Origin: Rhodococcus sp. 105337
GTDB lineage: Bacteria; Actinomycetota; Actinomycetes; Mycobacteriales; Mycobacteriaceae
NCBI RefSeq assembly: GCF_012844225.1
Contig: NZ_JABAGQ010000006.1
Location: forward strand, 1 to 64,000
Direction of reading: 5' to 3'
DNA length: 64,000 bases
The first letter of the stretch is position 1. Each line of letters starts with the position of its first letter. Below, piece by piece: positions 1 through 38,146 of the stretch. Position numbers and translations under genes: made by a program. The notes under the pieces are model-generated. The model was not told the origin of the DNA and searched no databases. It saw only the letters and a list, made by a program, of their open reading frames with translations.

Positions 1-75
1 GCGCGATTAGCTCAGCGGGAGAGCGCTTCCCTGACACGGAAGAGGTCACTGGTTCAATCCCAGTATCGCGCACCA
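1..75 (+). tRNA. tRNA-Val(GAC)
   Basis: A complete cloverleaf can be drawn. The acceptor stem pairs bases 1-7 with 65-71, the anticodon stem is 26-30/38-42, and the loop at 31-37 carries anticodon GAC (33-35), which reads valine GUC/GUU codons. CCA is encoded at 73-75. It is base-for-base identical to the copy at 218-292. Confidence 0.97.
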
Positions 76-121
76 GGTTCGACCAGCACGTGGGTCGAAT
101 CGATGTAGAGTCAACGTGCAT

Positions 122-197
122 GCGGATGTAGCGCAGCTGGTAGCGCATCACCTTGCCAAGGTGAGGGTCGCGGGTTCGAATCCCGTCATCCGCTCCA
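122..197 (+). tRNA. tRNA-Gly(GCC)
   Basis: Acceptor stem 122-128/187-193, anticodon stem 148-152/160-164, and anticodon GCC at 155-157. CCA is encoded at 195-197. It lies 46 nt after the first tRNA-Val and 20 nt before the second, so the three are probably processed from one transcript. Confidence 0.97.
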
Positions 198-217
198 AAT
201 CTGGACCCCACAATCCC

Positions 218-292
218 GCGCGATTAGCTCAGCGGGAGAGCGCTTCCCTGACACGGAAGAGGTCACTGGTTCAATCCCAGTATCGCGCACCA
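218..292 (+). tRNA. tRNA-Val(GAC), second identical copy
   Basis: Identical over all 75 bases to 1-75, including the encoded CCA (290-292). Anticodon GAC is at 250-252. The transcript appears to end at the hairpin starting 8 nt downstream. Confidence 0.97.
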
Positions 293-299
293 GGAACGA

Positions 300-332
300 C
301 GAAGGCCCCCTTCCTCAGGAAGGGGGCCTTCG
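300..332 (+). terminator. Strong hairpin terminator of the tRNA cluster
   Basis: A perfect 15-bp inverted repeat (300-314 and 318-332) with a 3-nt loop. The stem is very GC-rich. The following bases have only scattered Ts, so it is a stem-dominated terminator of the kind common in actinobacteria. Confidence 0.85.
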
Positions 333-406
333 TCGTATCCGTCCGGTGGACGCGGCCCTCGATCAGGAACGCGACCGGCGTCGCATCCGAGTCGAGGGCC
401 CGCGGA

Positions 407-1021
407 CTACCGGCCCGCCGCCGCCGTGTGGGTCCGGTTGATTCCGGCGATCATCGCGCGAAGAGTCGATTCCACGCCGCTCTCCCCCATGCCCATCACC
501 CACGTGCGACGTGCGCCGGACCCGCAGAGCAGGAACGTCACGTGCAGGTCGCCGAGATCGTGCCGGTGGAACGAGTGGATCTCGATGCCGAAACCGAGGT
601 CGTAGAGCATCGCCGTCATCCCCGCGACGGGACCACACGCGAGCGCGGACGCGGAGTGGATCGTATCGCCCACCGCGATCGTCGCTTCGAACGCCGATCG
701 GCCCGCCGGCAACGTGGTGGCCGACCAGTCACCCAATCGAAGGGGACCGCGCTCGGAGGCGTACACCGCGAGGAACTCCGGCCACGACATTCCGGCGGCT
801 TCGGCACGCAGCGGGAGCGGAAGCGGGCGGCCGTACCGCGCAGCGAAAGGATCGAGGGGCGTAGCACTGCCGGGCGCGCACGCCGGTGCGGCACGCAGAG
901 CGGTTCGACGAGAATCCGACGGACGCGCAAAGGCAGCATCGAAATCGGAGGAGATGAAAGAAGTGAAGGCGTTCATTTCGGGAGGTCTTCCGCGAGAAGG
1001 AAGGACCGACGCATAGCTCAA
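407..1021 (-). CDS. Stand-alone LeuA-type regulatory (dimerisation) domain protein
   Basis: 204 aa. The C-terminal half follows the allosteric leucine-binding domain at the end of 2-isopropylmalate synthase: a CGP turn followed by MTAMLYDLGF, then a central strand, a GMGE segment and a closing STLRAMIAGINR helix. No TIM-barrel catalytic domain is present, so it cannot be a full LeuA. I infer a regulatory or leucine-sensing role, possibly by pairing with LeuA; this is untested. The longest frame opens with TTG at 1021, and an ATG at 976 would give a 189-residue product. Neither has a convincing ribosome site, so the start is uncertain. It faces the tRNA cluster tail to tail, with the tRNA hairpin between. 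Confidence 0.75.
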   Translation of the reverse strand: MSYASVLPSRGRPPEMNAFTSFISSDFDAAFARPSDSRRTALRAAPACAPGSATPLDPFAARYGRPLPLPLRAEAAGMSWPEFLAVYASERGPLRLGDWSATTLPAGRSAFEATIAVGDTIHSASALACGPVAGMTAMLYDLGFGIEIHSFHRHDLGDLHVTFLLCGSGARRTWVMGMGESGVESTLRAMIAGINRTHTAAAGR

Positions 1022-1322
1022 CGACCCGCAGCGAGGGGTCGGTCCGAATCAGACCCCGCTACGGCGGTGAACTACGAGTACGCGCTTCATAGGTGCCGAC
1101 CTTAAAGGGTTTGTGAACGTTCCGCAACAATGAGTTGTGCACGATGTGACGGAAACGTGACCGCAGCAGGTGGAACTCCCCGAAAACACTCGGGTAGCGT
1201 GGAACGTGCCATCCCCCCCGATGGTATTGGACCCCAGCCATGACCCCCCATCCAAGGCTGGGGTTCAGCCATTTCCGGGCCCGGAACTTCCCGCCCCGAC
1301 CACTCGGTGCTTCACTGGATCC
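1022..1322. other. Divergent intergenic region with a hairpin
   Basis: 301 bp between two divergent genes, so it must hold both promoters. No gene is seen. Near the GNAT side a perfect 9-bp hairpin (1231-1239 with 1256-1264) would lie in that gene's leader if transcription starts upstream of it. No clear -35/-10 pair was recognised. Confidence 0.5.
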
Positions 1323-1982
1323 ATGCCCACGTCGTCGTCACTCGAAGAGTCCGTCTCCGTCGGTCCGGCAGGCATCTGGGATGCCGAGACCATCGCCGGA
1401 GTCGCCGCCACCACGTTTCCGCTCGCGTGCCCTCCAGGGGCCGGGTCCGAGGACATCGCGGCGTTCGTCGAGGAAACCCTCAGCGCAGAGAACTTCAGCG
1501 AGTACCTGACCGACCCTCGCCGCATCGTGCTGAAAGCCTGCGTCGACGACGAGATCGTCGGCTATCTGATGGCCGTAGATCCGGCGAGTGAGACCACGGT
1601 GGACCCCGCGAGTGAGAACTCGGTGGACCCCGCGAGTCAGAACTCGGTGGACCCCGCGAGTGAGAACTCGGTGGACCCCGCGAGTCAGAACTCGGACGCG
1701 TACGCCGTACCCGACGTGGTCACCGCACGACCCGCCATCGAGATCAGCAAGCTGTACGTACTTCCGGGACATCACGGCGCCGGAGTATCCGCCGCGCTGA
1801 TGGACGCGATCGTCGAGCGCGCCGCCGAGCGCAGGCGTGCCGGGCTGTGGCTGGGTGTGAACCAGGAGAACACGCGTGCCCGTCGCTTCTACCAGAAGCA
1901 CGGCTTCGAGGTCGTCGGTACGCGAACCTTCGTTGTCGGTTCACAGACACACGACGATTTCCTCATGCAACGCGTGCTGTGA
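1323..1982 (+). CDS. GNAT family N-acetyltransferase with an in-frame octapeptide repeat
   Basis: 219 aa. The C-terminal part has the GNAT core: strand EISKLYVLPG, the acetyl-CoA loop HHGAGV, helix SAALMDAIVE, and the ending RARRFYQKHGFEVVG seen in many acetyltransferases. Between the strand ending VGYLMAVDP and the acetyl-CoA strand sits a run of five VDPASENS-like octapeptides (about residues 85-124), where typical family members have a short loop. Substrate unknown; proteins and small amines are both possible for this family. The start is the ATG at 1323, with no clear Shine-Dalgarno sequence. The gene converges on zapE with only 12 nt between stops. Confidence 0.85.
   Translation: MPTSSSLEESVSVGPAGIWDAETIAGVAATTFPLACPPGAGSEDIAAFVEETLSAENFSEYLTDPRRIVLKACVDDEIVGYLMAVDPASETTVDPASENSVDPASQNSVDPASENSVDPASQNSDAYAVPDVVTARPAIEISKLYVLPGHHGAGVSAALMDAIVERAAERRRAGLWLGVNQENTRARRFYQKHGFEVVGTRTFVVGSQTHDDFLMQRVL
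1575..1694 (+). repeat. Five tandem 24-bp units inside the GNAT gene
   Basis: Five head-to-tail 24-bp units encode VDPASE(T/N)(T/S) or VDPASQNS. Unit 1 is the most diverged. Units 2 and 4 are identical to each other, as are units 3 and 5, suggesting that a 48-bp block was duplicated. Each unit is a multiple of three, so copy-number change lengthens or shortens a loop without breaking the frame. Confidence 0.95.
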
Positions 1983-1994
1983 CCGCCCCGCCGG

Positions 1995-3008
1995 TCAGCC
2001 GGCGGCAACCTCGAAACGGGACAAGGCGAGCAGACGCGACGTGGCACGCAGGTACTTCTTGCGGTACCCGCCCGACAGCATCTCGGGTGTGAAGATCTCG
2101 TCGAGCCGTGCGCCGGCGACCGTCACCGGAATGCTCGCGTCGTAGAGGCGATCCGCAAAGACCACGAGACGCAAAGCGACCGACTGATCGCGCGCGGGGT
2201 GCACCCCGTTGATGAAGACCGCGGGCACTCCTTCGACGAGCTTGCCGTACCGGGACGGGTGCAGGGTGCTCAGGTGATCGCACAATTCGTCGAAGTCGTC
2301 GAGCGTCGCGCCGGAAACCTGGTCCGCACGCTCGATGAGCTCCTCCGACTCGATGGGATCGGGGGCCGGCGGCAGGTCGCGGTGGCGATAGTCGGGTCCG
2401 TCCACGCGGATCGTCTCGAAGATCGAGGCGAGCTTCTTGATCTCGCGCAGGAAGTCCTGGGCCGCGAAGCGACCCTCGCCGAGCTGGCCAGGCAGTGTGT
2501 TCGACGTGGCCACGATCGACACTCCGCGTGCCGACAATTCGGTGAGCAGCCGGGAGATGAGCATGGTGTCGCCCGGATCGTCGAGTTCGAACTCGTCGAT
2601 GCACAGGACGCTGTGACTCGACAGTTCCTCGACGGCCTTGTTGAACCCCAGCGCTCCGACGACGTGGGTGAGCTCGACGAAGGTGCCGAAGGCTTTCGGG
2701 GACGGTGCGCTGTGGAAGATCGAGGCGAGCAGGTGGGTCTTGCCCACGCCGAAACCGCCGTCGAGGTACAGCCCCGCTCCCTGGGCCGGGGCCTTACGGC
2801 CGAACAGGCCGCGCTTGCCGCCCCGGATCTTCTCGACCTTGCCGACGAACTCCTCGGCGGCCTTGACCGCCGCGGCCTGGCTCGGCTCGGCAGGATCGGG
2901 GATGTACGACGCGAAACTCACCTCGTCGAACATCGCGGGCGGCACCAGCTGGGCCACCAACTGATCTGCGGGCACCACCGGGTTGCGGTCGACGAGGCGT
3001 TCGTGCAT
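1995..3008 (-). CDS. zapE: Cell division protein ZapE (AFG1-like ATPase)
   Basis: 337 aa, the usual length. Walker A is GGFGVGKTH (about residues 104-112) and Walker B is LCIDEFELDD, followed by a sensor-like ATSNTLP; these are the signatures of the AFG1/ZapE AAA+ family. In E. coli ZapE binds FtsZ and acts at the division ring during stress, and the M. tuberculosis counterpart by position is Rv2670c. Cytoplasmic. The ATG at 3008 follows a TACGCT -10 box by six nt, so the mRNA is probably leaderless and this start is well supported. Confidence 0.93.
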   Translation of the reverse strand: MHERLVDRNPVVPADQLVAQLVPPAMFDEVSFASYIPDPAEPSQAAAVKAAEEFVGKVEKIRGGKRGLFGRKAPAQGAGLYLDGGFGVGKTHLLASIFHSAPSPKAFGTFVELTHVVGALGFNKAVEELSSHSVLCIDEFELDDPGDTMLISRLLTELSARGVSIVATSNTLPGQLGEGRFAAQDFLREIKKLASIFETIRVDGPDYRHRDLPPAPDPIESEELIERADQVSGATLDDFDELCDHLSTLHPSRYGKLVEGVPAVFINGVHPARDQSVALRLVVFADRLYDASIPVTVAGARLDEIFTPEMLSGGYRKKYLRATSRLLALSRFEVAAG

Positions 3009-3014
3009 TCATCC

Positions 3015-3020
3015 AGCGTA
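3015..3020 (-). promoter_or_regulatory. -10 box of zapE, leaderless type
   Basis: TACGCT on the minus strand, six nt before the zapE ATG. This spacing puts the transcription start on or next to the start codon. No clear -35 was identified. Confidence 0.55.
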
Positions 3021-3232
3021 AGGCCGCAGAGTGAGTGGGTAGCACCGCCCAAGCGGAATGCGACCTACTTCACAGAACGTTCACCATGTGTTCACGAGTC
3101 GCGAGGACAATCCACTGCCCCGCGAGGCGGCGCCGATTTCACTCTTACCGGGATCATGTCCGGGCCTCGGGACGGCCGCTCACGTCGACACCTGTGCACT
3201 CCCCGATCGGTGACACCTGGCAGGCTGTCCCC

Positions 3233-4792
3233 ATGCGCAGAACCGGTGTGCTCGCGGTGGGATGGATCGCGGTGGCCGCAGTGGCCGCCGCGTGCGGAGC
3301 GGGACCATCGGTCCGGCCCGACGTCGCCGTGGTGCGCGAAGGAGTCGATAGCAGCGAACCGACCGTCCAGGAAGACGAGGACGCGGCGCCCGAACTGCCC
3401 GTTCCCCAAACGGACCTCACGTGGCGCGACTGCACTTCCGACACCGTGGCGTCCTACTCGCTCTCGTCGGGGCCGACAGGTCTGTCGCTCGAATGCGCCG
3501 AAGTGCCGACGCCGATCGACCCCTCCGGTGCTGTTCCCGGCACCTTCCCGCTTGCCGTGCTCCGGGCGCAGCTCCCGGACACCCCGGACGACGTCGCACC
3601 ACTGGTCCTCACGACCGGCAGCGACATGCCGTCGACGCGCGCCCTCGCCGCACTCGCAACCGGCCCGCTCTCGGGCGTGCTGACGACGCGTCCGGTGGTC
3701 GCGGTGGATCGTCGTGGCATCGGGATGTCGCTGGCCATCGACTGTGTGTTCGGCGCCGACCGTCGCGCCCTCGCCGATCTGGGACAGTTCGGTCGCAGCG
3801 GGTCCGCGCCGGAGCGAGTGGCCGAACTCGGCCGCCAGGCCACCATCTCCTGCACCGACTATCTTCAGCCCCAGGAGTTGATGTTCAGCGCGTCCCACGC
3901 GGCCGGCGACATCGACCGGCTGCGGCAGGCATGGAACGTCGAGCGCGTGGGCCTCCTCGGCATCGGAAACGGCGCGGCGGTGGGTCTCGCATATGCCGCG
4001 GCCTACCCGGGTGCCGTGGGACGGCTCGTGCTGGACTCCCCCGTCGCCGCATCGGGCGACGCAGAACAGATCGCGGAGTCGCGCGCCCGCGGCGCCGAGT
4101 CCGCGGTGGACGCGTTCTCGCGGCAGTGCGCAGCGCTCGACTGTTCGCTCGGTGACGACCCCCGGCAGGCTCTCGAAGACCTCCACGCACAGGCCTCGAG
4201 CGGCGCTCTGGCACCGGTGTCCTCCAATGCCTTGCTGACGGTGATCACCGCGTATCTCGGCACACCGCGCGGAGATCTTCCCAGCCGGATCCGCGAACTG
4301 TCCGACACGCTGGCTTCCGCGCGGGACGGCGATGTGGTGCCACTGCTCGATCTGGTGGGCACCGCCGAACAGATTCTCGCCTCCGACGGCCAGTTCGTCT
4401 CGCGGTGCAGCGACGGCCAGCGATGGCCGACGCCGACCCGCGCGGCCGATCTCCAGCGCAACTGGGCGACGCTCTACCCCCTGTTCGGTGCGGACACGGC
4501 CGCGGCTACCACCGCATGCGCGGCCTGGCCCACCCTGCCCGCTCCACCCCTGCCCGCAGCCCTCGACACCCCTGTACTCGTCACCGGCGGCGCTGCGGAT
4601 CCCATTGTCGGCAGCGTGGGAGTCGAATCGGTGACCGGCGCGCTCACCGCCGGCGCGATCGCATGGTCGACCGTGTCCTGGCAGGGTGCCGGTTATTCCG
4701 CCTCGTTGCATTCGACGTGCATTCAGGGCCGCATCGAGCGGTACCTGAGTACGGGAGAGCTGCCGCCGAACGGAAGTCTCTGCCCGGCATGA
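3233..4792 (+). CDS. Lipoprotein of the SlpD/tripeptidyl-aminopeptidase fold, catalytic residues replaced
   Basis: 519 aa. The N-terminus has a signal peptide with lipobox VAAAC (Cys about residue 20), so the protein is expected to be anchored outside the membrane. The body follows the alpha/beta-hydrolase tripeptidyl aminopeptidase family (Rv2672 by position). Where the family has G-x-S-x-G this protein reads GIGNG at about residues 243-247, with Gly for the nucleophilic Ser. The C-terminal acid region GGAADP (about 454) is present. The usual catalytic GHG is GAG (about 485). Two of three triad residues therefore appear lost, suggesting a binding or scaffold role. A shifted catalytic set cannot be excluded without a structure. 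Confidence 0.82.
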   Translation: MRRTGVLAVGWIAVAAVAAACGAGPSVRPDVAVVREGVDSSEPTVQEDEDAAPELPVPQTDLTWRDCTSDTVASYSLSSGPTGLSLECAEVPTPIDPSGAVPGTFPLAVLRAQLPDTPDDVAPLVLTTGSDMPSTRALAALATGPLSGVLTTRPVVAVDRRGIGMSLAIDCVFGADRRALADLGQFGRSGSAPERVAELGRQATISCTDYLQPQELMFSASHAAGDIDRLRQAWNVERVGLLGIGNGAAVGLAYAAAYPGAVGRLVLDSPVAASGDAEQIAESRARGAESAVDAFSRQCAALDCSLGDDPRQALEDLHAQASSGALAPVSSNALLTVITAYLGTPRGDLPSRIRELSDTLASARDGDVVPLLDLVGTAEQILASDGQFVSRCSDGQRWPTPTRAADLQRNWATLYPLFGADTAAATTACAAWPTLPAPPLPAALDTPVLVTGGAADPIVGSVGVESVTGALTAGAIAWSTVSWQGAGYSASLHSTCIQGRIERYLSTGELPPNGSLCPA

Positions 4793-6189: not shown

Positions 6190-6618
6190 ATGACTTCCAC
6201 TCCCCGATCCGAACCCGCTCCCAAGGTTGTGCTGAGCGAGGACGAGTGGCGCGACAAGCTCACTCCCGCCGAGTATGCGGTGCTGCGTCAGGCCGGCACG
6301 GAACGGCCCTTCACCGGTGAATACACCGACACCGAGTCCGAGGGTGTCTACGAATGCCGGGCATGTGGCGCCGAACTGTTCCGCAGCAGCGAGAAGTTCC
6401 CGTCGCACTGCGGCTGGCCGTCGTTCTTCGATCCCGCCGACTCCGACGCCGTGATCCTGCGGACCGACGATTCGCTGGGGATGCGCCGCGTGGAAGTGCT
6501 GTGCGCCTCGTGCCACAGTCACCTCGGCCATGTCTTCGAGGGCGAGGGCTACCCGACCCCCACCGACCAGCGCTACTGCATCAATTCGATTTCCTTGCGC
6601 CTGGTTCCGACAACGTAA
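6190..6618 (+). CDS. msrB: Peptide-methionine (R)-S-oxide reductase MsrB
   Basis: 142 aa, normal length. Two zinc-binding pairs, CRAC (about residues 55-58) and CASC (about 104-107), flank the signature HCGWPSF. The catalytic cysteine is in RYCINS near the C-terminus (about 130). The enzyme reduces the R epimer of protein-bound methionine sulfoxide with thioredoxin as electron donor. By position it matches Rv2674. The last 38 nt overlap the 3' end of the convergent HAD gene. Confidence 0.96.
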   Translation: MTSTPRSEPAPKVVLSEDEWRDKLTPAEYAVLRQAGTERPFTGEYTDTESEGVYECRACGAELFRSSEKFPSHCGWPSFFDPADSDAVILRTDDSLGMRRVEVLCASCHSHLGHVFEGEGYPTPTDQRYCINSISLRLVPTT

Positions 6619-7306
6619 CCCCCGCGTCCTTCAAGGCGCTCCACAGCCCGTCGGGCCGCTCCGTCGTCGGGAGTGGCTCGACGAGGCGGAACGCGCACCC
6701 GATCTCTGTAGCGGCGCCGTCCGCTTCCACACTGTCGCCGATCATCAGGGTGCGTTCGGGTTCGACCCCGAGCGCTTCGACGGCATAACGGAAGATCTCG
6801 GGCTCCGGTTTGACCGCACCGATCTCGAAGGACAGCGCGAACACGGAGACCAGGTCGTCGATGCCGAGTGCGGCGAAGGCAGGCCGGATGTCGAATGCGA
6901 TGTTGCTCAGGACCCCCACCGCGATGCCGTCGCCCGCGAGTGCTTCGATCACGGGCACGGTATCCGGGTACACCGTCCAGCTCGTCGGATCGACCACCTT
7001 TCCGTACAGCGTCTGAGCCTGCTGCGGGTCCTCGACACCGGATCTGCAGAGCACGGTCAGATACGCCTCCCGATGCCGGCGCGGGTCACGGTCGCGATTG
7101 ATCCAGGCGTGGTGCTCCTCCGCGTCCATCTCCACAGGCTGTCCGGTAGGAGCGGTCAGCCGCCGCATCAGTTCGGCCTGCCGGCTCACGTCGAAGGCCT
7201 CACCTCGTGCATCGGTGATGCCGGCCATCCAGCTCTCGTCCTCTTCGAGCCGGAACAGCGTGCCGGAAAAGTCGAACAGAACAGCATCGAACGGTCGCGC
7301 GCTCAT
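6581..7306 (-). CDS. HAD-family hydrolase (phosphatase-like)
   Basis: 241 aa with all four HAD motifs: FDFSGT (about residues 11-16, nucleophile Asp), VLSNIAFD (motif II), KPEPEIF (motif III Lys) and GDSVEAD (motif IV). The cap between motifs I and II is helical (C1 type), as in phosphoglycolate and haloacid-type enzymes. The true substrate cannot be read from sequence. The ATG at 7306 follows a TAGCCT box by six nt. The C-terminal coding end overlaps msrB by 38 nt in the opposite orientation, so the two transcripts are antisense to each other there. Confidence 0.88.
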   Translation of the reverse strand: MSARPFDAVLFDFSGTLFRLEEDESWMAGITDARGEAFDVSRQAELMRRLTAPTGQPVEMDAEEHHAWINRDRDPRRHREAYLTVLCRSGVEDPQQAQTLYGKVVDPTSWTVYPDTVPVIEALAGDGIAVGVLSNIAFDIRPAFAALGIDDLVSVFALSFEIGAVKPEPEIFRYAVEALGVEPERTLMIGDSVEADGAATEIGCAFRLVEPLPTTERPDGLWSALKDAGVTLSEPGARKSN

Positions 7307-28938: not shown

Positions 28939-30231
28939 TCACCGGGTGAACAGCGCGAGGCACTCCACGTGATGAGTCGACGGGAACGCCGCGAACGCGC
29001 GGACTTCGGCGAGCTCGAAACCCTGTGCGCGGTACAGGCCCACGTCACGGCCGAATGCCGCGGGGTCGCATCCGAGGTGGATGACCCGGCGGGGCCCCGC
29101 CTCCGCGATGGCACTCACGACCTCCTTGCCCGCACCGGCGCGCGGCGGGTCGAGCACGACGACCTCCGGAGCCGGAAGCTCGCCGACGAGGCGCTCCACG
29201 CGTCCGTGCCGGAACGAGATCTGGTCCAGGTCCGCCAGCGCAGCCGTACCGTCCTCCACAGCGGTCCGCGACGACTCCACGGAGATCACACTCCCCCGGC
29301 TTCCCACCTGTCCGGCGAGCGAGGCGGCGAAGACACCGACTCCGCCGTACAGGTCCCAGACGGTGCTTCCCTCCGATGCCTGCGCCCACTCCGCGACGAC
29401 CCCCGAGTACGTGGTCGGCGCCCCTCGATGGGCCTGCCAGAAACCGGTTGCCGCGACGGTCCACTCGCGATCGCCGACCCGTTCGACGGGTCGTCCCGAT
29501 CCCTCGACGACCTTCTCCGCGCGAGGCGCACTCGTCGCAGCCCGGCGCGCGGCGGCGCCGCGGCGGCCGGGGCTCTTGTGACCGGTACCCGAAATCACGG
29601 GAGGTGCGATCTCGACGATGTGCCGGTCGCCGTTCGCATCCAGCACCACCTGCAGTTCGGCGCCGGGACGCCACACCTGGTCCGGCAAACCCCGGTAGGC
29701 GGCGGCGTCTATCTGTGGGCACGCAAGCTCGGGAACGACGTCGTTGCTGTGGTACCGCCGGTACCCGGGGCTGCCCGCGGCGTCGACCGCGAGCCGGACA
29801 CGGGTCCGCCACAAGGTGCCGTTCGGCGACCCGCCCGGGATTTCCTCGACGGTGATGTCGCGCTCGACACCGCCGAGTCTCCGCAGCTGTTCGCTCACCA
29901 CCGCGGCGGCAAAGCGGCGCTGCGCGGGCACGGAAGCGTGTGACATGTCGCAGCAGCCCGCACCGCCCGGCCCGGACACCGGGCACAGCGGATCGACCCG
30001 ATCCTCGGAGGCTTCCAGGATCTCCACCGCGTCGGCGAAACAGAACGAGCCGCCGCGGTCCTCGGTGATCGACGCGAACACCCGCTCCCCCGGAAGGCCG
30101 TGGCGGACGAAGATCACCCGGCCTTCGAACCGGGCGACGCAGAAACCGCCGTGCGCGGGGTTGCCCAAGATCACCTCTACCCGGCGTCCGGACCAATCCG
30201 TGCGCGTGCCCTGTCGTTCCTGCCGACTCAC
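28939..30231 (-). CDS. Class I SAM-dependent RNA (uracil-5-)-methyltransferase, TrmA/RumA family
   Basis: 430 aa. An N-terminal TRAM-like OB domain (about 14-70) is followed by a cysteine cluster (LCPVSG, CCDMSH and later ELACPQ) resembling the 4Fe-4S ligands of RumA. The SAM domain has WDLYGGVGVFAASLA and VVLDPPRAGAGKE, and the nucleophilic cysteine is in HLGCDPAAFGRD. It forms 5-methyluridine in tRNA or 23S rRNA; which RNA is not decided. GTG at 30231 overlaps the permease stop as GTGA. Matches Rv2689c. Confidence 0.9.
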   Translation of the reverse strand: MSRQERQGTRTDWSGRRVEVILGNPAHGGFCVARFEGRVIFVRHGLPGERVFASITEDRGGSFCFADAVEILEASEDRVDPLCPVSGPGGAGCCDMSHASVPAQRRFAAAVVSEQLRRLGGVERDITVEEIPGGSPNGTLWRTRVRLAVDAAGSPGYRRYHSNDVVPELACPQIDAAAYRGLPDQVWRPGAELQVVLDANGDRHIVEIAPPVISGTGHKSPGRRGAAARRAATSAPRAEKVVEGSGRPVERVGDREWTVAATGFWQAHRGAPTTYSGVVAEWAQASEGSTVWDLYGGVGVFAASLAGQVGSRGSVISVESSRTAVEDGTAALADLDQISFRHGRVERLVGELPAPEVVVLDPPRAGAGKEVVSAIAEAGPRRVIHLGCDPAAFGRDVGLYRAQGFELAEVRAFAAFPSTHHVECLALFTR

Positions 30232-32225
30232 TGCTGTTCCTCCTTGTCGAGACCCCGGCGCACCGCTCCGGGCGCCGAATCGATCCGTTCTCGTCCCACC
30301 GCTGCCGACGAGCGCAGCTGCCAGGGCACGCTCGTGACCATCACCCCGGGTTGGAAGAGGAGACGGCTCTTGAGACGTAGCGCACTCTGGTTGTGCAGGA
30401 TCTGCTCCCACCAGTGACCCACCACGTACTCCGGGATGAACACCGTCACGACGTCACGCGGCGAGTCACGCCGGACACGCCGGACGTAGTCGAGCACGGG
30501 CCTGGTGATCTCACGATACGGCGACTCGACGACCTTCAGCGGAATGGTGAGGTCGCTGCGCTCCCATTCCCGGACCAGCTTGCGGGTGTCCTCCTCGTCG
30601 ACGTTCACGGTAATCGCTTCGAGAGTGTCGGGCCGGGTCGCCCGCGCGTACGCCAGGGCGCGCAATGTCGGCAGGTGGAGCGTCGACACAAGCACGATCG
30701 AGTGGGTGCGACTGGGCAGAACCCCGTCCCACTCCGCACCTTCGAGTTCGGCCGAGATGGTGTCGTAATGACGACGTATCGCCTTCATCACACCGAAGAT
30801 CGCCACCATCGTCGCGACCGCGATCCACGCACCCGCGGTGAACTTCGTGACGAGCACGATCAGCAGCACGGCCGTGGTCGCCACGAACCCGATCACGTTG
30901 ACCGACCGTGAACGCTGCATCCGGCCACGGCTCGCCGGGTCCGTCTCGGTGGCAAGGAATCGGGTCCAGTGCCGGACCATTCCGGCCTGTCCGAGACTGA
31001 AGGCGACGAACACGCCGACGATGTAGAGCTGGATGAGCTTGGTCACTTCGGCGTCGAAGACCCACACGAACACGATGGCCAGACCCGACAGGAACACAAT
31101 GCCGTTGCTGAACGCGAGGCGATCGCCGCGGGTGTGCAGCTGCCGCGGGAGGTACCGGTTCTGGGCGAGCACCGAGGCGAGCACGGGGAACCCGTTGTAG
31201 GCGGTGTTCGCGGCGAGCACGAGGATCACGGCCGTCACCACCGCCATCAGGAAGAACGCCACCGGAACGTCGCTGAAGATCGTCTGGGCCAGCTGCGCGA
31301 CGAGCGTTTTCTGCTCGTACCCCTCGGGGGCACCCCGGAGCTGGGTCGCCGGATTCTCCGCCACCACCACGCCCAGACGCTGGGCGAGGAACACCACCCC
31401 GAGGAAGAGCGTCACGGCGATCGCTCCGAGCATGAGCAGTGTGGTCGCCGCGTTCCGAGCCCTGGGCTTACGGAAGGCCGGAACCCCGGTGCTGATCGCC
31501 TCGACACCCGTCAGCGCCGCACAGCCCGACGAGAAGGCCCGTGCGAGAAGGAAGATGAAGGCGATCGCGGTGAGGTCGGTCTGCTCGGCGACGAGCTCGA
31601 ACTCCGCCGATTCCGCTCGCAGGTCCTCCCCCAGGACGAAGATCTGGAACAGCCCCCACCCGAGCATCGCGAGCATGCAGGCCACGAACGCGTACGTCGG
31701 GAAGGCAATGGCCTTGCCCGCCTCCCGGAGCCCACGCAGGTTCACCGCGGCGAGTATCGCGATGGCGGCGATGGCGAAGAGCACCTTGTGCTGCGCGACG
31801 AAGGGCACCGCCGAACCGATGTTCGCCGCTGCCGACGACAACGAGACCGCGACGGTGAGCACGTAGTCGACCATGAGGGCGCTGCCGACCGTCAGACCGG
31901 CGGTGGCCCCGAGGTTCTTCGTCGCGATCTCGTAATCGCCGCCGCCCGAGGGGTAGGCGCGCACATTCTGCCGGTAACTCGCCACGACGATCACGAGAAC
32001 GGCGGCGACTGCGAGGCCGATCCACGGCGAGAACGCGTATGCGGACAAGCCGGCGATGGACAGGACGAGGAAGATCTCCTCCGGCGCGTATGCCACCGAG
32101 GACAATGCGTCGGAGGCGAATACGGGCAGGGCTATCCGCTTGGGCAGCAGATCGTGCCCGAGAGTATCGCTGCGGAACGGGCGACCCAGCAGGAGCCGTT
32201 TCGTGGCGGTGGAAAGCTTGGACAC
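30228..32225 (-). CDS. APC-superfamily permease of the KimA potassium-importer type
   Basis: 665 aa with about twelve membrane helices, then a cytoplasmic UspA-like domain of about 180 residues. Several blocks resemble Bacillus subtilis KimA as I recall it: ASDALSSVAYAPEEI, YPSGGGDYEIA, AFSSGCAALTGVEAIS, GDRLAFSNGIVFL, and ILHNQSALRLKSRLL in the soluble part. KimA imports K+ with H+ and is inhibited by c-di-AMP. It diverges from two RCK genes, which supports a potassium role over amino acid transport. The GTG at 32225 lies six nt after a TAGGCT box, favouring this start over an upstream TTG. Matches Rv2690c. Confidence 0.82.
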   Translation of the reverse strand: MSKLSTATKRLLLGRPFRSDTLGHDLLPKRIALPVFASDALSSVAYAPEEIFLVLSIAGLSAYAFSPWIGLAVAAVLVIVVASYRQNVRAYPSGGGDYEIATKNLGATAGLTVGSALMVDYVLTVAVSLSSAAANIGSAVPFVAQHKVLFAIAAIAILAAVNLRGLREAGKAIAFPTYAFVACMLAMLGWGLFQIFVLGEDLRAESAEFELVAEQTDLTAIAFIFLLARAFSSGCAALTGVEAISTGVPAFRKPRARNAATTLLMLGAIAVTLFLGVVFLAQRLGVVVAENPATQLRGAPEGYEQKTLVAQLAQTIFSDVPVAFFLMAVVTAVILVLAANTAYNGFPVLASVLAQNRYLPRQLHTRGDRLAFSNGIVFLSGLAIVFVWVFDAEVTKLIQLYIVGVFVAFSLGQAGMVRHWTRFLATETDPASRGRMQRSRSVNVIGFVATTAVLLIVLVTKFTAGAWIAVATMVAIFGVMKAIRRHYDTISAELEGAEWDGVLPSRTHSIVLVSTLHLPTLRALAYARATRPDTLEAITVNVDEEDTRKLVREWERSDLTIPLKVVESPYREITRPVLDYVRRVRRDSPRDVVTVFIPEYVVGHWWEQILHNQSALRLKSRLLFQPGVMVTSVPWQLRSSAAVGRERIDSAPGAVRRGLDKEEQQ

Positions 32226-32231
32226 CTGCAA

Positions 32232-32237
32232 AGCCTA
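32232..32237 (-). promoter_or_regulatory. -10 box of the KimA-type permease, leaderless type
   Basis: TAGGCT on the minus strand, six nt before the GTG at 32225. Confidence 0.5.
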
Positions 32238-32405
32238 AGCCGTCCGCCTGGTGGAACACTGCATCGGACGCCGGTGTCCGTTTCCGCACGCCACCGACGC
32301 TTCGCCGAGTCCGACCGCGCGCCCGACCGCCGGGCGGTACGGTTCCGTTCGGCGACCACCGACCGTGGTCGCCTCCTCGACGATCGACGAAACGGAGTGT
32401 CCACG

Positions 32406-33071
32406 GTGTACGTGGTGGTGATGGGGTGTGGCCGGGTGGGTTCGTCCGTGGCCACCGCGCTCGTGCGACTCGGCAACGAGGTGGCGGTCGTCGACCGGGA
32501 CCCGAGCGCATTCCTGCGGCTGGGACCGGATTTTCCCGGCCACACGGTCGTGGGGATGGGATTCGATCGGGACGTGCTGATCCGGGCCGGCATCGAGCAG
32601 GCCGACGCGTTCGCCGCGGTGTCGTCGGGTGACAACTCGAACATCATCTCGGCGCGTGTGGCCCGCGAGATCTTCGGGGTCGATCGTGTGGTCGCGCGGA
32701 TCTACGACGCGAAGCGCGCGGCCGCCTACGAGCGCCTCGGCATCCCCACCGTCGCCACCGTGCCGTGGACCACGGACCGGTTCCTGCACGCGCTCACCCA
32801 CGACAGCGAGGCGACGCGGTGGCGGGATCCGACCGGCTCGGTCGCAGTGGCCGGCGTCGACGTCCACGAAGGCTGGGTAGGTCGGCGCGTGACCGAACTC
32901 GAGGAAGCGACCGGTTCCCGCGTCGCGTTCCTCATCAGGTTCGGCACCGGCCTGCTGCCGGATCGCAGGACCGTGATCCAGGCAGACGATCTGGTCTACA
33001 TCGCTGCCGTTTCCGGTTCTGCGGCCGAGGCGATCACACTGGCCGAGAACCCTCCGGCGGAGGACAACTGA
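32406..33071 (+). CDS. trkA: TrkA/RCK potassium-uptake regulator (CeoB-like)
   Basis: 221 aa. The N-terminal RCK_N Rossmann domain has GCGRVGSSVATAL (GxGxxG) and a conserved acidic strand end (VVDRDP). The C-terminal RCK_C domain starts at about residue 140. RCK proteins form rings that gate Trk/Ktr channels in response to nucleotides or c-di-AMP. The GTG at 32406 has GGAG about nine nt upstream; another GTG three codons earlier is possible. Position matches ceoB (Rv2691). No TrkH/KtrB pore gene is present in the window. Confidence 0.92.
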   Translation: MYVVVMGCGRVGSSVATALVRLGNEVAVVDRDPSAFLRLGPDFPGHTVVGMGFDRDVLIRAGIEQADAFAAVSSGDNSNIISARVAREIFGVDRVVARIYDAKRAAAYERLGIPTVATVPWTTDRFLHALTHDSEATRWRDPTGSVAVAGVDVHEGWVGRRVTELEEATGSRVAFLIRFGTGLLPDRRTVIQADDLVYIAAVSGSAAEAITLAENPPAEDN

Positions 33072-33105
33072 GCACGATGACCCCGTCAACCGAGAGGATC
33101 CGTCG

Positions 33106-33759
33106 ATGAAGGTCGCCATCGCAGGCGCGGGAGCCGTGGGACGGTCGATCGCCCGCGAACTCGTGCGCAACAACCACGAGGTCATGCTGCTCGAGCGCAA
33201 ACTCGACCACGTCGAACCCGCTGCCGTGCCGGAGGCCGAGTGGGTGCACGCCGACGCGTGCGAGCTCAGTCTGCTCGAGGCTGCCGGTCTCGAAAACTAC
33301 GATGTGGTGATCGCAGCGACCGGCGACGACAAGGTCAACCTCGTGCTGAGCCTTCTCGCCACCACCGAGTTCGGGGTGCCGCGCGTCGTGGCCCGCGTCA
33401 ACGACCCCCGCAACGAATGGCTGTTCGACGAGTCGTGGGGGGTCGACGTGGCGGTGTCGACCCCTCGCATGCTCGCGGCGCTGGTCGAGGAGGCCGTCAC
33501 CGTGGGCGATCTGGTGCGATTGATGACATTGCGAAGGGGTGCGAACCTCGTCGAAATCACCTTGCCCGACACCACCGCGCTCGCGGGCAAGCCGGTGCGC
33601 AAATTGCAGTTGCCGCGGGACGTCGCGCTGGTGACGATTCTTCGCGGTGAACGAGTCATCGTGCCGCAACCCGACGACCCCCTCGAGGGGGGAGACGAAC
33701 TGCTGTTCGTCGCTGCGCAGGATGTCGAAGACGAGTTGCGCGCGGCCGTCGGCGTCTAG
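33106..33759 (+). CDS. Second TrkA/RCK protein (CeoC-like)
   Basis: 217 aa, same architecture as the upstream protein: the RCK_N motif GAGAVGRSIAREL at about residues 7-19, then an RCK_C domain (about 135-217). It begins 34 nt after trkA and is probably cotranscribed. Two single-ring RCK proteins side by side suggest a hetero-oligomer. A hairpin 12 nt after the stop ends the pair. Confidence 0.92.
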   Translation: MKVAIAGAGAVGRSIARELVRNNHEVMLLERKLDHVEPAAVPEAEWVHADACELSLLEAAGLENYDVVIAATGDDKVNLVLSLLATTEFGVPRVVARVNDPRNEWLFDESWGVDVAVSTPRMLAALVEEAVTVGDLVRLMTLRRGANLVEITLPDTTALAGKPVRKLQLPRDVALVTILRGERVIVPQPDDPLEGGDELLFVAAQDVEDELRAAVGV

Positions 33760-33907: not shown

Positions 33908-35320
33908 ATGACCGTGTATCGGCAGCAGATCGCCGGTGTCACATACGAATTCCAGGGTCTCGTGGATCTCCTGGCGAAAGCGTCGCCGCGGCGGTCGGGA
34001 GACGAACTCGCCGGGTGCGCCGCGCATTCCGACGCCGAGCGTGCGGCGGCTCAGTGGGCGCTCGCGGACGTGCCGCTGTCGGCCTTTCTCACCGAGGCGA
34101 TCGTTCCGTACGACACCGACGAGGTAACCCGTCTGATCATCGACTCCCACGACGCCGACGCGTGTGCGCCCGTCGCGCATCTGACGGTCGGCGGCTTCCG
34201 CGACCACCTGCTCACCGTCGCGGCGCAGCCGGACCCTGCCCCCGCGCTGCGGGCACTCGCGCCGGGGCTGACCCCGGAGATGGTCGCGGCGGTCAGCAAG
34301 ATCATGCGCAACCAGGATCTGATCGCGGTCTCGCGGGCAGCGACCGTCACGAGTGCCTTCCGCACCACCATCGGCCTCCCGGGCCGATTGTCGACCCGGT
34401 TGCAACCGAACCATCCGCTCGACGACCCGCACGGTGTCGCGGCGGCGGTGCTCGACGGCCTGCTGATGGGATGCGGTGACGCGGTGGTCGGCATCAACCC
34501 CGCGAGCGACTCCCCGCGCGCGGTGGGCGACCTCCTGCGGTTGCTCGACGACATCCGGCAGCGGTTCTCCATCCCGGTCCAGTCGTGTGTACTCACCCAC
34601 ATCACGACGACCATCGACCTGGTGGCGCAGGGCGCGCCGGTCGATCTGGTCTTCCAGTCGGTCGCGGGCACCGAAGGCGCCAACCGCGGATTCGGAGTCG
34701 ATCTCGCCCTCCTGCGTGAAGGCAACGAGGCGGCGCGGGCGCTGCGCCGCGGAACGGTCGGCGAGAACGTGATGTATCTGGAGACCGGTCAGGGCTCGGC
34801 GCTCTCGTCGGGCACACACCTGGGCGCCGGCGGACGCCCAGTGGATCAGCAGACCTTGGAGGCCCGCGCGTACGCGGTGGCGCGTGAGCTCGATCCTCTC
34901 CTGGTCAACACCGTCGTCGGTTTCATCGGACCCGAGTACCTCTACGACGGCAAACAGATCATCAGGGCAGGGCTCGAGGACCAGTTCTGCGGCAAGCTCC
35001 TCGGCCTGCCCATGGGAGTCGACGTCTGCTACACCAATCACGCCGAGGCCGACCAGGACGACATGGACACCCTGCTCACGTTGCTGGGCGTCGCGGGCAC
35101 CGCGTTCGTCATCACGGTGCCGGGAGCGGATGACGTCATGCTCGGCTACCAGTCGCTCTCGTTCCACGACGCGCTGTATGCGCGGGAGGTCATGGGTCTG
35201 CGGCCCAGCCCCGAATTCGAGGAATGGCTGCGGGCACAGGGCTTGGCCGACGATTCCGGGCGCATCCTGCCCGTCGATATGGCGGCCTCGCCGCTGCGAG
35301 CACTCGGAGGGGCGCTGTGA
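33908..35320 (+). CDS. eutB: Ethanolamine ammonia-lyase large subunit EutB
   Basis: 470 aa, close to the usual length. Conserved blocks include GLTPEMVAAVSKIMRNQDL, GDAVVGINPASDS, ETGQGSALSSG and the C-terminal GLPMGVDVCYTNHAEADQDDMD, which lines the active site. With EutC and adenosylcobalamin it splits ethanolamine into acetaldehyde and ammonia. The ATG at 33908 is preceded by GGAGG about 10 nt upstream. No eutA reactivase, shell protein, permease or cobalamin riboswitch is visible next to it. The pair interrupts the otherwise conserved order between ceoC and the DUF3159 gene. Confidence 0.96.
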   Translation: MTVYRQQIAGVTYEFQGLVDLLAKASPRRSGDELAGCAAHSDAERAAAQWALADVPLSAFLTEAIVPYDTDEVTRLIIDSHDADACAPVAHLTVGGFRDHLLTVAAQPDPAPALRALAPGLTPEMVAAVSKIMRNQDLIAVSRAATVTSAFRTTIGLPGRLSTRLQPNHPLDDPHGVAAAVLDGLLMGCGDAVVGINPASDSPRAVGDLLRLLDDIRQRFSIPVQSCVLTHITTTIDLVAQGAPVDLVFQSVAGTEGANRGFGVDLALLREGNEAARALRRGTVGENVMYLETGQGSALSSGTHLGAGGRPVDQQTLEARAYAVARELDPLLVNTVVGFIGPEYLYDGKQIIRAGLEDQFCGKLLGLPMGVDVCYTNHAEADQDDMDTLLTLLGVAGTAFVITVPGADDVMLGYQSLSFHDALYAREVMGLRPSPEFEEWLRAQGLADDSGRILPVDMAASPLRALGGAL

Positions 35321-36090
35321 CGGACGCGTGGGAGGCACTTCGGCGCCACACGCAGGCCCGCATCGGACTGGGACGGGCCGGCAACGGCTTGCCCACGCGG
35401 CGGCACCTCGAGTTCGTCGCGGCGCATGCGGCGGCCCGCGATGCCGTTCATGCACCTCTCGACGTGGAGTCCCTCGCACAGCAGCTGGAGGCGCTCGAAT
35501 TCGATGATCTGCCCGGACGCCCGCGTCTCGGTGCGCCTCTGACGGTGCGCAGCGCGGCCGCCACCCGGGACGTCTATCTCCGCCGCCCCGACCTGGGACG
35601 CCGGCCCGAGGACGGGACCGCACTTCCCCACAGCGGTGCCGACGTGGGGATCGCTCTGTGCGACGGCCTGTCGTCGACCGCGCTCCTGGACCACGGCCCC
35701 GCGCTCGTCGCAGCGATCGTGCGTGCGCTTCCCGGGTCGACTTTCGCGCCGCCGGTCATCGCCACGCAGGCGCGGGTCGCACTTGGCGACCACATCGGCG
35801 CACAGCTCGGCGTCACGACCATGCTGGTGCTCATCGGTGAGCGCCCCGGACTGTCGAGCGCCGACAGTATCGGCGTCTACCTCACGCATCACCCCGAGCC
35901 GGGGCGCCGCGACTCCGAGCGGAACTGTGTGTCGAACATCCATCCGCCCGGCGGGATGACATGTGAGGGGGCCGCGCGGGTGATTGCTGCACTCGTGGAC
36001 GGTGCTCGGCGGCTCGGCGCCTCGGGCGTCATGCTCAAGGACGGTTCGCGCGGTCCGGCGTTGGCCGACGGAGAACACCGCGCGTTGTAG
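35317..36090 (+). CDS. eutC: Ethanolamine ammonia-lyase small subunit EutC
   Basis: 257 aa. The family sequence ARIGLGRAGNGLPTRRHLEF is near the N-terminus and DVGIALCDGLSSTA lies mid-protein. SNIHPPGGM marks the C-terminal cobalamin-side region. EutC helps form the adenosylcobalamin pocket of the EutBC hexamer. Its GTG overlaps the eutB stop as GTGA, so the two subunits are translationally coupled. It is shorter than enteric EutC (about 295 aa), mainly at the N-terminus, which in enterics carries the microcompartment-targeting region. Confidence 0.95.
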   Translation: MTDAWEALRRHTQARIGLGRAGNGLPTRRHLEFVAAHAAARDAVHAPLDVESLAQQLEALEFDDLPGRPRLGAPLTVRSAAATRDVYLRRPDLGRRPEDGTALPHSGADVGIALCDGLSSTALLDHGPALVAAIVRALPGSTFAPPVIATQARVALGDHIGAQLGVTTMLVLIGERPGLSSADSIGVYLTHHPEPGRRDSERNCVSNIHPPGGMTCEGAARVIAALVDGARRLGASGVMLKDGSRGPALADGEHRAL

Positions 36091-36111: not shown

Positions 36112-36789
36112 TCACACCTCGCGGTGGCGGCCCGAGGGAGGAATCGGGGTCTCCCCCGGTTCCTCGGCTTCGGCGGCCTCGGGAGCCGGCTCGACGAGAC
36201 GGTCGGCTTTGCGTACCGCCCACAAGGTCACCAGCAATACCAGGCCGGTGAGCGGCCAGCCCATTCCGATGCGGGCCACGGCCAGCCAGCCGGTTTCGTC
36301 GGCGTCGTAGAGGTGGTTCTGGACCAGATAGCGCGCCAGGAACACCAGTGCCCACGCGACGGTCGCGATGTCGTACGCACGGACGGCGTCCTTGTGCGAC
36401 CGCCACCGTGAGCCCTGCCCGTTCAGCATCCCCCAGACCACGCCCACGAGCGGCCTGCGGACCAGCACCGATACGACGAATGCTCCGCCGTAGATCAGGC
36501 TGGCGTAGATCCCGAAGAGGAAGTACCCCTTGGCATCACCGGTGCGATACGCGATGAACGCGCACACCGCGACGCCGATGAAACCCGAGATCGCGGGCTG
36601 AATAGGGGTGCCTCGAATCAGCCGCCACGCCAGGACACCGCAGGCGACAGCCACGGCCGCCCAGATCGCGGCCGTCAGGCCCCACCAACTGTTCACCGGC
36701 ACGAACACCAGGACGGGCAGCGTCGAATACACCAACCCGCTGATGCCACCGAGTTGTTCCAGCATCGTCTGCTGCCTGATGTCGCTCAC
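36112..36789 (-). CDS. DUF3159 integral membrane protein
   Basis: 225 aa with about five to six hydrophobic helices and a charged, Glu/Pro-rich cytoplasmic tail. Matches Rv2693c in type and position. Function unknown. The ATG at 36789 has AGGAG about 8 nt upstream. It precedes no close downstream gene on its strand; the OB-fold gene lies upstream and may share a transcript. Confidence 0.88.
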   Translation of the reverse strand: MSDIRQQTMLEQLGGISGLVYSTLPVLVFVPVNSWWGLTAAIWAAVAVACGVLAWRLIRGTPIQPAISGFIGVAVCAFIAYRTGDAKGYFLFGIYASLIYGGAFVVSVLVRRPLVGVVWGMLNGQGSRWRSHKDAVRAYDIATVAWALVFLARYLVQNHLYDADETGWLAVARIGMGWPLTGLVLLVTLWAVRKADRLVEPAPEAAEAEEPGETPIPPSGRHREV

Positions 36790-36870: not shown

Positions 36871-37248
36871 TCAGGCCGGGCCGCGCAATTCGTAGTAGGG
36901 GTTGTAGATCACCCGTCGCCCGTCGCGTTCACCGACTCGTCCCCGTACGAGCAGGGTCTTGCCGGTTTCTATACCCGGGATACGGCGGCGTCCGATCCAG
37001 ACCAGAAGGATGGAGTCGGTGCCGTCGAACAACTCCGCCTGCACTGTCGGGGCGGCTGCTTTCGAGCACGACTCCACGCTGCGGAGCCGGCCGAACATGG
37101 TCACTTCCTGGCCGCGGGTGCACTTGACGACGGGAAGCGCGCCGGTCGAATGAGACGACTCGGCCATCTCTTCTGCGTCGAGTTCCTCGAGATCCTCGGT
37201 CAACCGACGAGTGAGCCGGCGTAGGTAACCGGCCGCGGCGGGTGGCAT
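36871..37248 (-). CDS. Small OB-fold nucleic-acid-binding protein
   Basis: 125 aa. The C-terminal half (about 45-125) looks like the tRNA-anticodon/ssDNA-binding OB fold: QEVTMFGRLRSVESC, AELFDGTDSILLVWIGRRRIPGI, KTLLVRGRVGERDGRRVIYNPYYEL in successive strands. Such stand-alone domains bind single-stranded nucleic acid; the partner is unknown. AGGAG sits seven nt before the ATG at 37248, which fixes the start; the longer frame upstream is not conserved. Matches Rv2694c. Confidence 0.88.
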   Translation of the reverse strand: MPPAAAGYLRRLTRRLTEDLEELDAEEMAESSHSTGALPVVKCTRGQEVTMFGRLRSVESCSKAAAPTVQAELFDGTDSILLVWIGRRRIPGIETGKTLLVRGRVGERDGRRVIYNPYYELRGPA

Positions 37249-37381
37249 GGCGCGCTCCTGTACACGGTGGGCACATGTGTGTGCCCGAAGTTGTCGTTCG
37301 ACCGCCACTGTAGACCGATTCCGGGCAAGCACAAGCACACCGAGTTGTGGTCCGGTTTCGAGCATTCGGCAGGATTGTGAC

Positions 37382-38146
37382 ATGCCCCGCACTGTGCCCT
37401 CCACCATCGATCTCAGCACTGTCACCGTCGCCGTCGTTCTGCCCGGCACCGGCTCGGATGCGAACTTCGTCGACCGCGTCTTCCGGGGCGCGCTGCGTTC
37501 CCGGGGAATCGACGTCGTGGCGGTCGATCCCGACCCTCGGGGAGTCGTGCGCAGCTACGTCCGCGCCATGGATGCTGCCGCGCGCAGCGGCCCGATCCTG
37601 GTCGGTGGAGTGTCGATCGGGGCCGCGGTCGCCCTGCAGTGGGCGGCGGAGCATCCGGATCTCGCTGCGGGAGTGCTCGCGGCCCTGCCCGCGTGGACCG
37701 GCGATCCCGCCGCGGCGCCTGCCGCGGCGAGCGCGCGATGGACTGCGTCGGAACTCCGTGCTCACGGTTTGGACGCGGTGACGGCCGCGATGGCGGCGTC
37801 GAGTCCTTCCTGGCTTGCCACAGAGCTGACCCGATCCTGGAAGGCTCAGTGGCCCGACCTGCCGTCGGCGCTCGAGGAAGCCGCCGGTATGCACGCGCTC
37901 GACGTGGACAGGCTGCGCGCTCTCGAGGTGCCGGTCGGGATCGCTGCGGCCGTCGACGATGCGGTCCATCCGTTCGAGACGGCGGAGCAATGGGCGCGGG
38001 AGATTCCGCGTGCCGCGCTGGGGAGCCTCCGACTGGCAGACATCGGCGCGGATCCGGGCCGGCTCGGCACGATGTGCCTGACGGCGCTCGACCAGGCGTG
38101 CGCCGGCCCGGCCCCGCGTGAGGACCGGACCGGCGGTACGGGCTAG
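37382..38146 (+). CDS. Alpha/beta-hydrolase-fold protein (Rv2695-like)
   Basis: 254 aa. GGVSIGAAVALQWA (about 80-93) holds the nucleophile elbow G-x-S-x-G. VAVVLPGTGSD near the start is the oxyanion-side loop. A late acidic residue in AAAVDDAVHP could be the triad acid, but no convincing catalytic His follows, so activity is uncertain. The stop shares the palindromic tetranucleotide CTAG with the stop of the convergent DUF3710 gene. Confidence 0.78.
   Translation: MPRTVPSTIDLSTVTVAVVLPGTGSDANFVDRVFRGALRSRGIDVVAVDPDPRGVVRSYVRAMDAAARSGPILVGGVSIGAAVALQWAAEHPDLAAGVLAALPAWTGDPAAAPAAASARWTASELRAHGLDAVTAAMAASSPSWLATELTRSWKAQWPDLPSALEEAAGMHALDVDRLRALEVPVGIAAAVDDAVHPFETAEQWAREIPRAALGSLRLADIGADPGRLGTMCLTALDQACAGPAPREDRTGGTG

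Follow-up and report, generated by a model that had tools for sequence, protein, structure and literature searches.

A stretch of 64,000 nucleotides from Rhodococcus sp. 105337 (contig NZ_JABAGQ010000006.1, positions 1 to 64,000; hereafter the window) encodes a predicted potassium importer of the KimA type beside two RCK proteins, whose adjacent genes diverge from it. Judged from gene neighborhoods, the pairing of KimA with this RCK type is kept widely in actinobacteria. KimA and the RCK pair very probably belong to one system. On balance, we favor the reading that the three genes encode a single K+ uptake system, in which KimA would take the position of the TrkH or KtrB pore and a ring of RCK proteins would tune it. 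The narrower claim that the RCK proteins act directly on KimA is given slightly better than an even chance. The initial annotation of this DNA had proposed such an importer; the KimA type of the permease, the RCK pair, the absence of TrkH and KtrB, and the conserved link to KimA support it in part, but its idea that the RCK part responds to cyclic di-AMP (c-di-AMP) was not supported.

The permease is a KimA homologue

In a phmmer search, residues 10-639 of the permease aligned with residues 5-605 of the 607-residue Bacillus subtilis KimA (PDB 6s3k) at an E-value of 4.7e-111, and KimA was the sole distinct PDB sequence matched under E 0.001. The likeness runs across both the transmembrane and cytosolic domains, the extent that defines the KimA subfamily. 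The K+ site of KimA comprises D36, Y43, T121, T230, and Y377, with E233 as the proton residue (PMC6994465, PMC10284832; here and below, papers are cited from partial text). Residues D36, Y43, D117, T121, S125, T230, E233, and Y377 of the B. subtilis protein correspond to D41, Y48, D122, T126, S130, T241, E244, and Y403 of the window protein, and the K+/H+ positions D36, Y43, E233, and Y377 are kept in 129 of 129 RCK-linked KimA copies. By these sequence measures the permease is a KimA homologue, and K+ would be its substrate in this Rhodococcus. Its start codon is TTG at 32231 or GTG at 32225.

KimA itself was assigned to the KUP family by structure and key residues (PMC6994465). The KUP profile K_trans (PF02705) gave no match to the window permease at E 0.001, one match below cut-off in a second KimA copy of the same genome, and no match above cut-off anywhere in that genome. 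Since the KUP placement came from structure and key residues, this mismatch is no argument against KimA.

Beyond its alignment with B. subtilis KimA, the window protein carries a C-terminal tail of about 28 residues that includes the motif APGAVRRG. The form APGxVRRG, or a near form, occurs in 80 of 97 RCK-linked versus 3 of 19 unlinked KimA copies of the class, with the motif having been defined post hoc after inspection of the data. It was not seen in RCK-linked KimA of other classes among the sequences displayed. The tail is at most a lead to a docking site. Many KimA proteins of other classes (L051-L089 and others; L and G numbers denote loci and genomes) have a tandem second copy of the cytosolic domain.

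A two-subunit RCK pair in a genome that lacks TrkH and KtrB

The divergent RCK pair is also as initially described. Each protein has TrkA_N and TrkA_C domains above cut-off and a GxGxxG motif; a two-subunit TrkA is characterized by separate RCK proteins that both have TrkA_N and GxGxxG and of which one or both have TrkA_C. The top solved-structure match of the first protein is TrkA (4g65); the second matches TrkA (4g65) and TM1088B (3l4b). The Rossmann motif is intact in all 74 KimA-linked RCK domains. By analogy with TM1088A/TM1088B, the two window proteins would form a mixed octameric ring.

The initial annotation found no TrkH/KtrB pore in the window and proposed a genome-wide search. This search returned 0 matches to PF02386 across the whole genome (4.46 Mb, 34 contigs, completeness listed as 100%), so the absence extends beyond the window. 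As a TrkH/KtrB pore defines Trk and Ktr membership, the system is not filed as Trk. The genome holds a single KdpA, a single diadenylate cyclase domain, and six TrkA_N stretches, two of which belong to Ion_trans_2 channels carrying their own RCK. The second KimA copy (L031, G000:C1:491000-500500) is 75% identical to the window KimA. It follows directly after one of these Ion_trans_2 + TrkA_N channel genes and shares its strand, so that importer and channel perhaps form an operon. The closest named relative is Rhodococcus yananensis (84%).

The link between KimA and the RCK pair is conserved

The pairing was followed through samples of 149 genomes from the phylum and 197 from the class. In the phylum sample, the best 150 matches to the second RCK protein were considered, down to about 27% identity, and those with at least 48% identity were defined as CeoC-like, a cut set post hoc. 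Within 10 kb of these CeoC-like proteins, KimA was encoded in 42 of 50 cases and TrkH in none. Among the next 100 matches (below 48%), 1 was near KimA and 50 were near TrkH. The lone case near KimA (G106) is probably a first-type (CeoB) partner gene; such RCK proteins near KimA are mostly absent from this set because the matches considered stop at about 27% identity. Several of the eight CeoC-like proteins not near KimA are on short contigs or at contig ends.

Whole genomes show the same association. KimA is present in 47 of 48 phylum genomes with a CeoC-like RCK versus 14 of 101 others, a comparison that omits weak matches and counts 61 KimA genomes; TrkH is present in 6 of 48 versus 77 of 101. 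At E 1e-3, a KimA-like match was found in 72 of the 149 genomes, and TrkH in 83. Because the sampled genomes are related and the 48% cut was post hoc, Fisher values for the pairing overstate its certainty.

Gene order is informative as well. Both RCK genes diverge from KimA in 78 of 80 named loci, the two exceptions being a stretch with KimA alone and a shortened contig with one RCK; the arrangement is therefore not due to chance. KimA and the RCK pair also occur together in 22 stretches (4.9-18 kb) outside the class, either divergently or as KimA-RCK-RCK on one strand, and the DUF3159 and methyltransferase genes that flank the window locus are each found in 0 of the 22. These neighborhoods support a conserved link that ties this RCK type to KimA rather than to TrkH.

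A FastTree phylogeny of 205 RCK domains required 3 label changes among the 144 labelled domains (74 KimA-linked, 70 TrkH-linked). A further 61 domains have neither KimA nor TrkH nearby, and many of them fall inside the KimA-linked part of the tree. Among B-type and C-type RCK proteins alike, the TrkH-linked and KimA-linked copies form separate clades. This branching suggests that the RCK pair came first and swapped its partner as a unit, in either direction, though most loci were picked for their nearness to KimA or TrkH, a non-random choice.

Relation to known systems

By gene arrangement, the window locus resembles CeoB/CeoC (Rv2691/Rv2692) and Rv2690c of Mycobacterium tuberculosis, and named Mycobacterium loci contain the same divergent KimA-RCK set. 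The ceoB and ceoC genes are adjacent and measure 684 and 663 bp (PMC8358298). Rv2690 adjoins ceoB and was grouped with it as Trk genes; insertions in the two share a phenotype in one screen (PMC12216072). In the available portions of these papers, CeoBC is named Trk and no pore is named, and Rv2690 is not termed KimA in PMC12216072. In medium free of K+, deletion of ceoBC from M. tuberculosis lowered internal K+ (PMC12136442). The terms TrkH, KimA, and permease are absent from PMC12136442, as are TrkH and permease from PMC6375644. Rv2690c (9 mutations) and ceoB (5) are among regions mutated within hosts (PMC13308281, a preprint). Among the open-access matches listed, no paper was found to identify the CeoBC partner as KimA. 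The wide conservation of the KimA-RCK pairing suggests that the membrane partner of the mycobacterial 'Trk' K+ system is a KimA importer.

Three other systems offer partial parallels. B. subtilis KimA (formerly YdaO; 6s3k, 8b70, 8b71; KUP) shares with the window protein a near full-length alignment, the K+/H+ residues, and the c-di-AMP residues checked; it differs from the window locus, where KimA is accompanied by the RCK pair, an OB-fold-like gene, and the C-terminal tail, with no upstream riboswitch found. In TM1088A/TM1088B of Thermotoga maritima (3l4b), two RCK proteins form one octameric ring, and a two-subunit homologue in M. tuberculosis is mentioned (PMC4380455). Both window RCK proteins match this system, but its partner is TrkH (TM1089) and TM1088A lacks a C domain, whereas TrkA_C is found in both window proteins. 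In KhtTU and CpeAB, a separate RCK_C subunit governs a secondary transporter, a K+/H+ antiporter (PMC10117811). These are efflux antiporters of another family with a c-di-AMP-binding RCK_C, unlike the KUP-type importer and signature-less RCK proteins of the window. In Streptomyces venezuelae, PMC10117811 notes that TrkH and KtrB are missing and that there are two proteins resembling KimA.

Exceptions and alternative explanations

A number of observations weigh against a single KimA-RCK system. Much of the gene order within the class reflects shared descent among related genomes. B. subtilis KimA is not known to need an RCK protein. No RCK pair lies within 5 kb, in the stretch examined, of 58 of 187 KimA genes, and one family includes five genomes that lack a CeoC-like RCK yet have both KimA and TrkH. 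The class sample contains KimA-like matches in 179 genomes, a CeoC-like RCK in 188, and TrkH in 63, and 14 of its genomes have a CeoC-like RCK without KimA. Twelve genomes from four families (f5, f63, f65, f68) retain CeoBC in its old position, and none of them has a KimA match genome-wide. KimA is gone from between the methyltransferase gene and CeoB at these KimA-less CeoBC loci, and CeoC of f63, the largest KimA-less group, is on a long branch. Three class genomes (G150, G205, G167) lack both KimA and TrkH. The contigs of G150 and G205 stop at the RCK genes (L176, L141), and their KimA may be unassembled; G167 is one of the 12 genomes above. As CeoBC is kept without KimA, the RCK pair can have another use. 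From the mycobacterial literature, ceoBC deletion gave slightly more sensitivity to low K+ and no growth defect (PMC6375644), and PMC10534295 and PMC8805019 list Rv2690c with no mention of ceoB in the text available.

The c-di-AMP results belong partly on this side of the balance. The initial annotation pointed to KimA and RCK_C domains as known c-di-AMP targets. In the window KimA, the five pocket positions checked, R337, H579, N580, Q581, and S582, are kept as R363, H613, N614, Q615, and S616. For the RCK proteins the idea was not supported. Neither window protein has the RCK_C signature (I/L)(I/L)x2DxRx5N(I/L)(I/L), nor was it found in any of 74 KimA-linked, 70 TrkH-linked, or 61 other domains, with no positive control sequence run. 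RCK_C was accordingly rejected as the c-di-AMP sensor because the signature is missing. In Streptomyces, the purified RCK_C of Vnz_27460 reportedly did not bind c-di-AMP, partly on unpublished data (PMC10117811). The Vnz_27460 locus tag adjoins that of the KimA-like Vnz_27465, and the available portion of the same paper draws no link between them; Vnz_27460 would be a counterpart of the window RCK pair.

Among the alternatives, the one that survives best is that KimA and the RCK pair serve the same pathway under common regulation without contact, with the RCK proteins acting on an Ion_trans_2 channel, the DUF3159 protein, or an unknown pore. This would account for the persistence of CeoBC in the 12 genomes without KimA; DUF3159 stands beside CeoC in 19 of 19 KimA-less loci, and the window genome has two Ion_trans_2 + TrkA_N channels to offer. 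Yet these channels have an RCK of their own, DUF3159 was found in none of the 22 KimA-RCK stretches (4.9-18 kb) outside the class, and KimA is the neighbor that is kept across classes and gene orders. We regard this explanation as unlikely.

Lower still is the probability that the RCK pair is promiscuous, gating KimA where present and TrkH otherwise. TrkH is indeed found in 11 of the 14 CeoC-bearing class genomes without KimA versus 44 of 174 with it, and the paired TrkH-linked and KimA-linked clades in the RCK tree would fit such behavior. However, in 10 of 11 TrkH stretches from KimA-less genomes (L163-L167 and L169-L173, but not L168), a separate RCK of a different type is encoded right next to TrkH. 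The 11 stretches come from 10 of the 11 KimA-less TrkH genomes and exclude G326 and one TrkH of G258. It is very improbable that the permease carries amino acids or polyamines and has nothing to do with the RCK pair: AA_permease_2 is its only Pfam name, but the near full-length KimA match, the four invariant K+/H+ positions, and the linkage with K+ regulators all speak against it.

An OB-fold-like protein and other neighbors

A further gene of the locus, encoding an OB-fold-like protein (Table 1), is a candidate fourth component. Among its relatives, 5 of the 6 scanned match tRNA_anti-codon, 1 above its cut-off. The gene is present at 68 of 74 long class loci, 0 of 41 TrkH loci, and, outside the class, 18 of 22 KimA-RCK stretches. 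At KimA stretches without a full RCK pair, it was found in 0 of 16 within the class and 3 of 26 outside, one of which (L056, among the 26) ends in a fragment of an RCK gene. The flanks compared in these counts are of unequal length. It is present in 20 of 20 sister KimA loci (same or near families) versus 1 of 18 comparable CeoBC loci without KimA, the latter comprising 11 genomes without KimA and 7 in which a more distant KimA lies at another place. That count omits L140, which ends 79 bases past the DUF3159 gene, and includes L161, which has neither KimA nor the OB gene. Also left out were L141, L156, L160, and L176, which end at the RCK genes with the KimA side off the contig; the OB gene is present at all four. 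Apparent OB genes in KimA-less L139, L144, and L150 came from a single-linkage blast cluster and were rejected when a profile search did not support them.

The association was also examined on the tree, where supported branches gave 4 independent pairs and all branches together 6, scoring 2.9 with KimA and 0 against; the corresponding values for the DUF3159 control were 0 and 0.1. The median p was 0.25 and thus not significant, four pairs being too few. In two loci, L047 (G080) and L157 (G157), an OB domain is fused to the KimA C-terminus in one open frame, with no further fusion in the loci scanned. These two fusions suggest that the OB-fold-like protein sits at the C-terminal side of KimA, where it is probably a further part of the system. 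That the OB gene travels with KimA is, from these gene counts, a new observation. Its mycobacterial counterpart is presumably Rv2694c, by gene order.

Table 1. Features of the KimA-RCK locus, with positions in the window
Feature	Positions	Strand	Basis or remark
TRAM / tRNA (uracil-5-)-methyltransferase-like gene, syntenic neighbor	28939..30411	-	Pfam
KimA-type K+/H+ symporter, APC family permease (predicted)	30228..32231	-	6s3k phmmer match and AA_permease_2
C-terminal tail motif APGAVRRG, residues 653-660	30252..30275	-	past aligned end of B. subtilis KimA
Intergenic region between divergent genes	32232..32405	.	nothing in Rfam at gathering score
First RCK protein, CeoB type, 221 aa	32406..33071 (GTG start 32406)	+	TrkA_N 8.3e-26, TrkA_C 1.2e-6 (Pfam)
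Second RCK protein, CeoC type, 217 aa	33106..33759	+	TrkA_N 1.5e-26, TrkA_C 9.8e-14 (Pfam)
DUF3159 membrane protein	36112..36789	-	PF11361
OB-fold-like protein, candidate fourth component	36871..37449, likely start 37248 (125 aa)	-	OB-fold matches below Pfam cut-off

The DUF3159 and methyltransferase genes were rejected as partners, since both are bound to the class locus: each occurs in all 19 CeoBC loci without KimA and in none of the 22 stretches outside the class. In the window, eutB and eutC (ethanolamine ammonia-lyase) lie at 33908-36090 (+) between ceoC and the DUF3159 gene, unlike the class loci examined, in which these two are close together. Riboswitch control of the locus was likewise rejected: no Rfam riboswitch in the window reached gathering score, and a search of 15 loci gave no c-di-AMP riboswitch.

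Some loci depart from the common arrangement. At L147 (G265), from a KimA-less genome, a ceoB-like gene at 6462-7156 runs across two frames, as if decaying or misassembled, and the OB match is weaker than at sister loci. The raiA RNA motif occurs near KimA genes without an adjoining RCK pair (L048 1202-1463; L049 7384-7645). A TrkH gene directly adjoins a KimA gene on the same strand at L260 (G207) 70-3556. Plasmid KimA is represented by 103 records; in the two stretches examined no RCK is annotated alongside, with an incomplete gene table.

Proposed mechanism and implications

The proposed system would work as follows. A KimA dimer would bring K+ into the cell, driven by protons, and high c-di-AMP would shut it by acting on the cytosolic domain of KimA itself, the mode known from B. 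subtilis. On the cytosolic side, the two RCK proteins would assemble into a mixed ring whose response to an adenine nucleotide or NAD(H) raises or lowers KimA transport. We infer the sign of this control; in mycobacteria the pair would favor uptake. The OB-fold-like protein may attach at the KimA C-terminal side. TrkH is a two-fold dimer. KimA is one as well (PMC10284832), so an eight-domain ring would by symmetry fit either.

CeoBC has been studied as the constitutive mycobacterial K+ uptake system, but RCK proteins, being cytosolic, have no means of moving K+ on their own. A named candidate for its membrane partner makes the question directly testable. If the proposal is true, RCK rings, which gate channels and some antiporters, would be able to work with a LeuT-fold importer as well; the transporter would then sense c-di-AMP and the ring would sense nucleotides. 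More tentatively, and with rather less than an even chance of being right, an ancient two-protein RCK ring may have exchanged one kind of membrane partner, a TrkH-type channel or a KimA-type symporter, for the other, and in actinobacteria may act in a four-part importer of KimA, CeoB, CeoC, and the OB-fold-like protein. In that event the mycobacterial 'Trk' would be no Trk at all.

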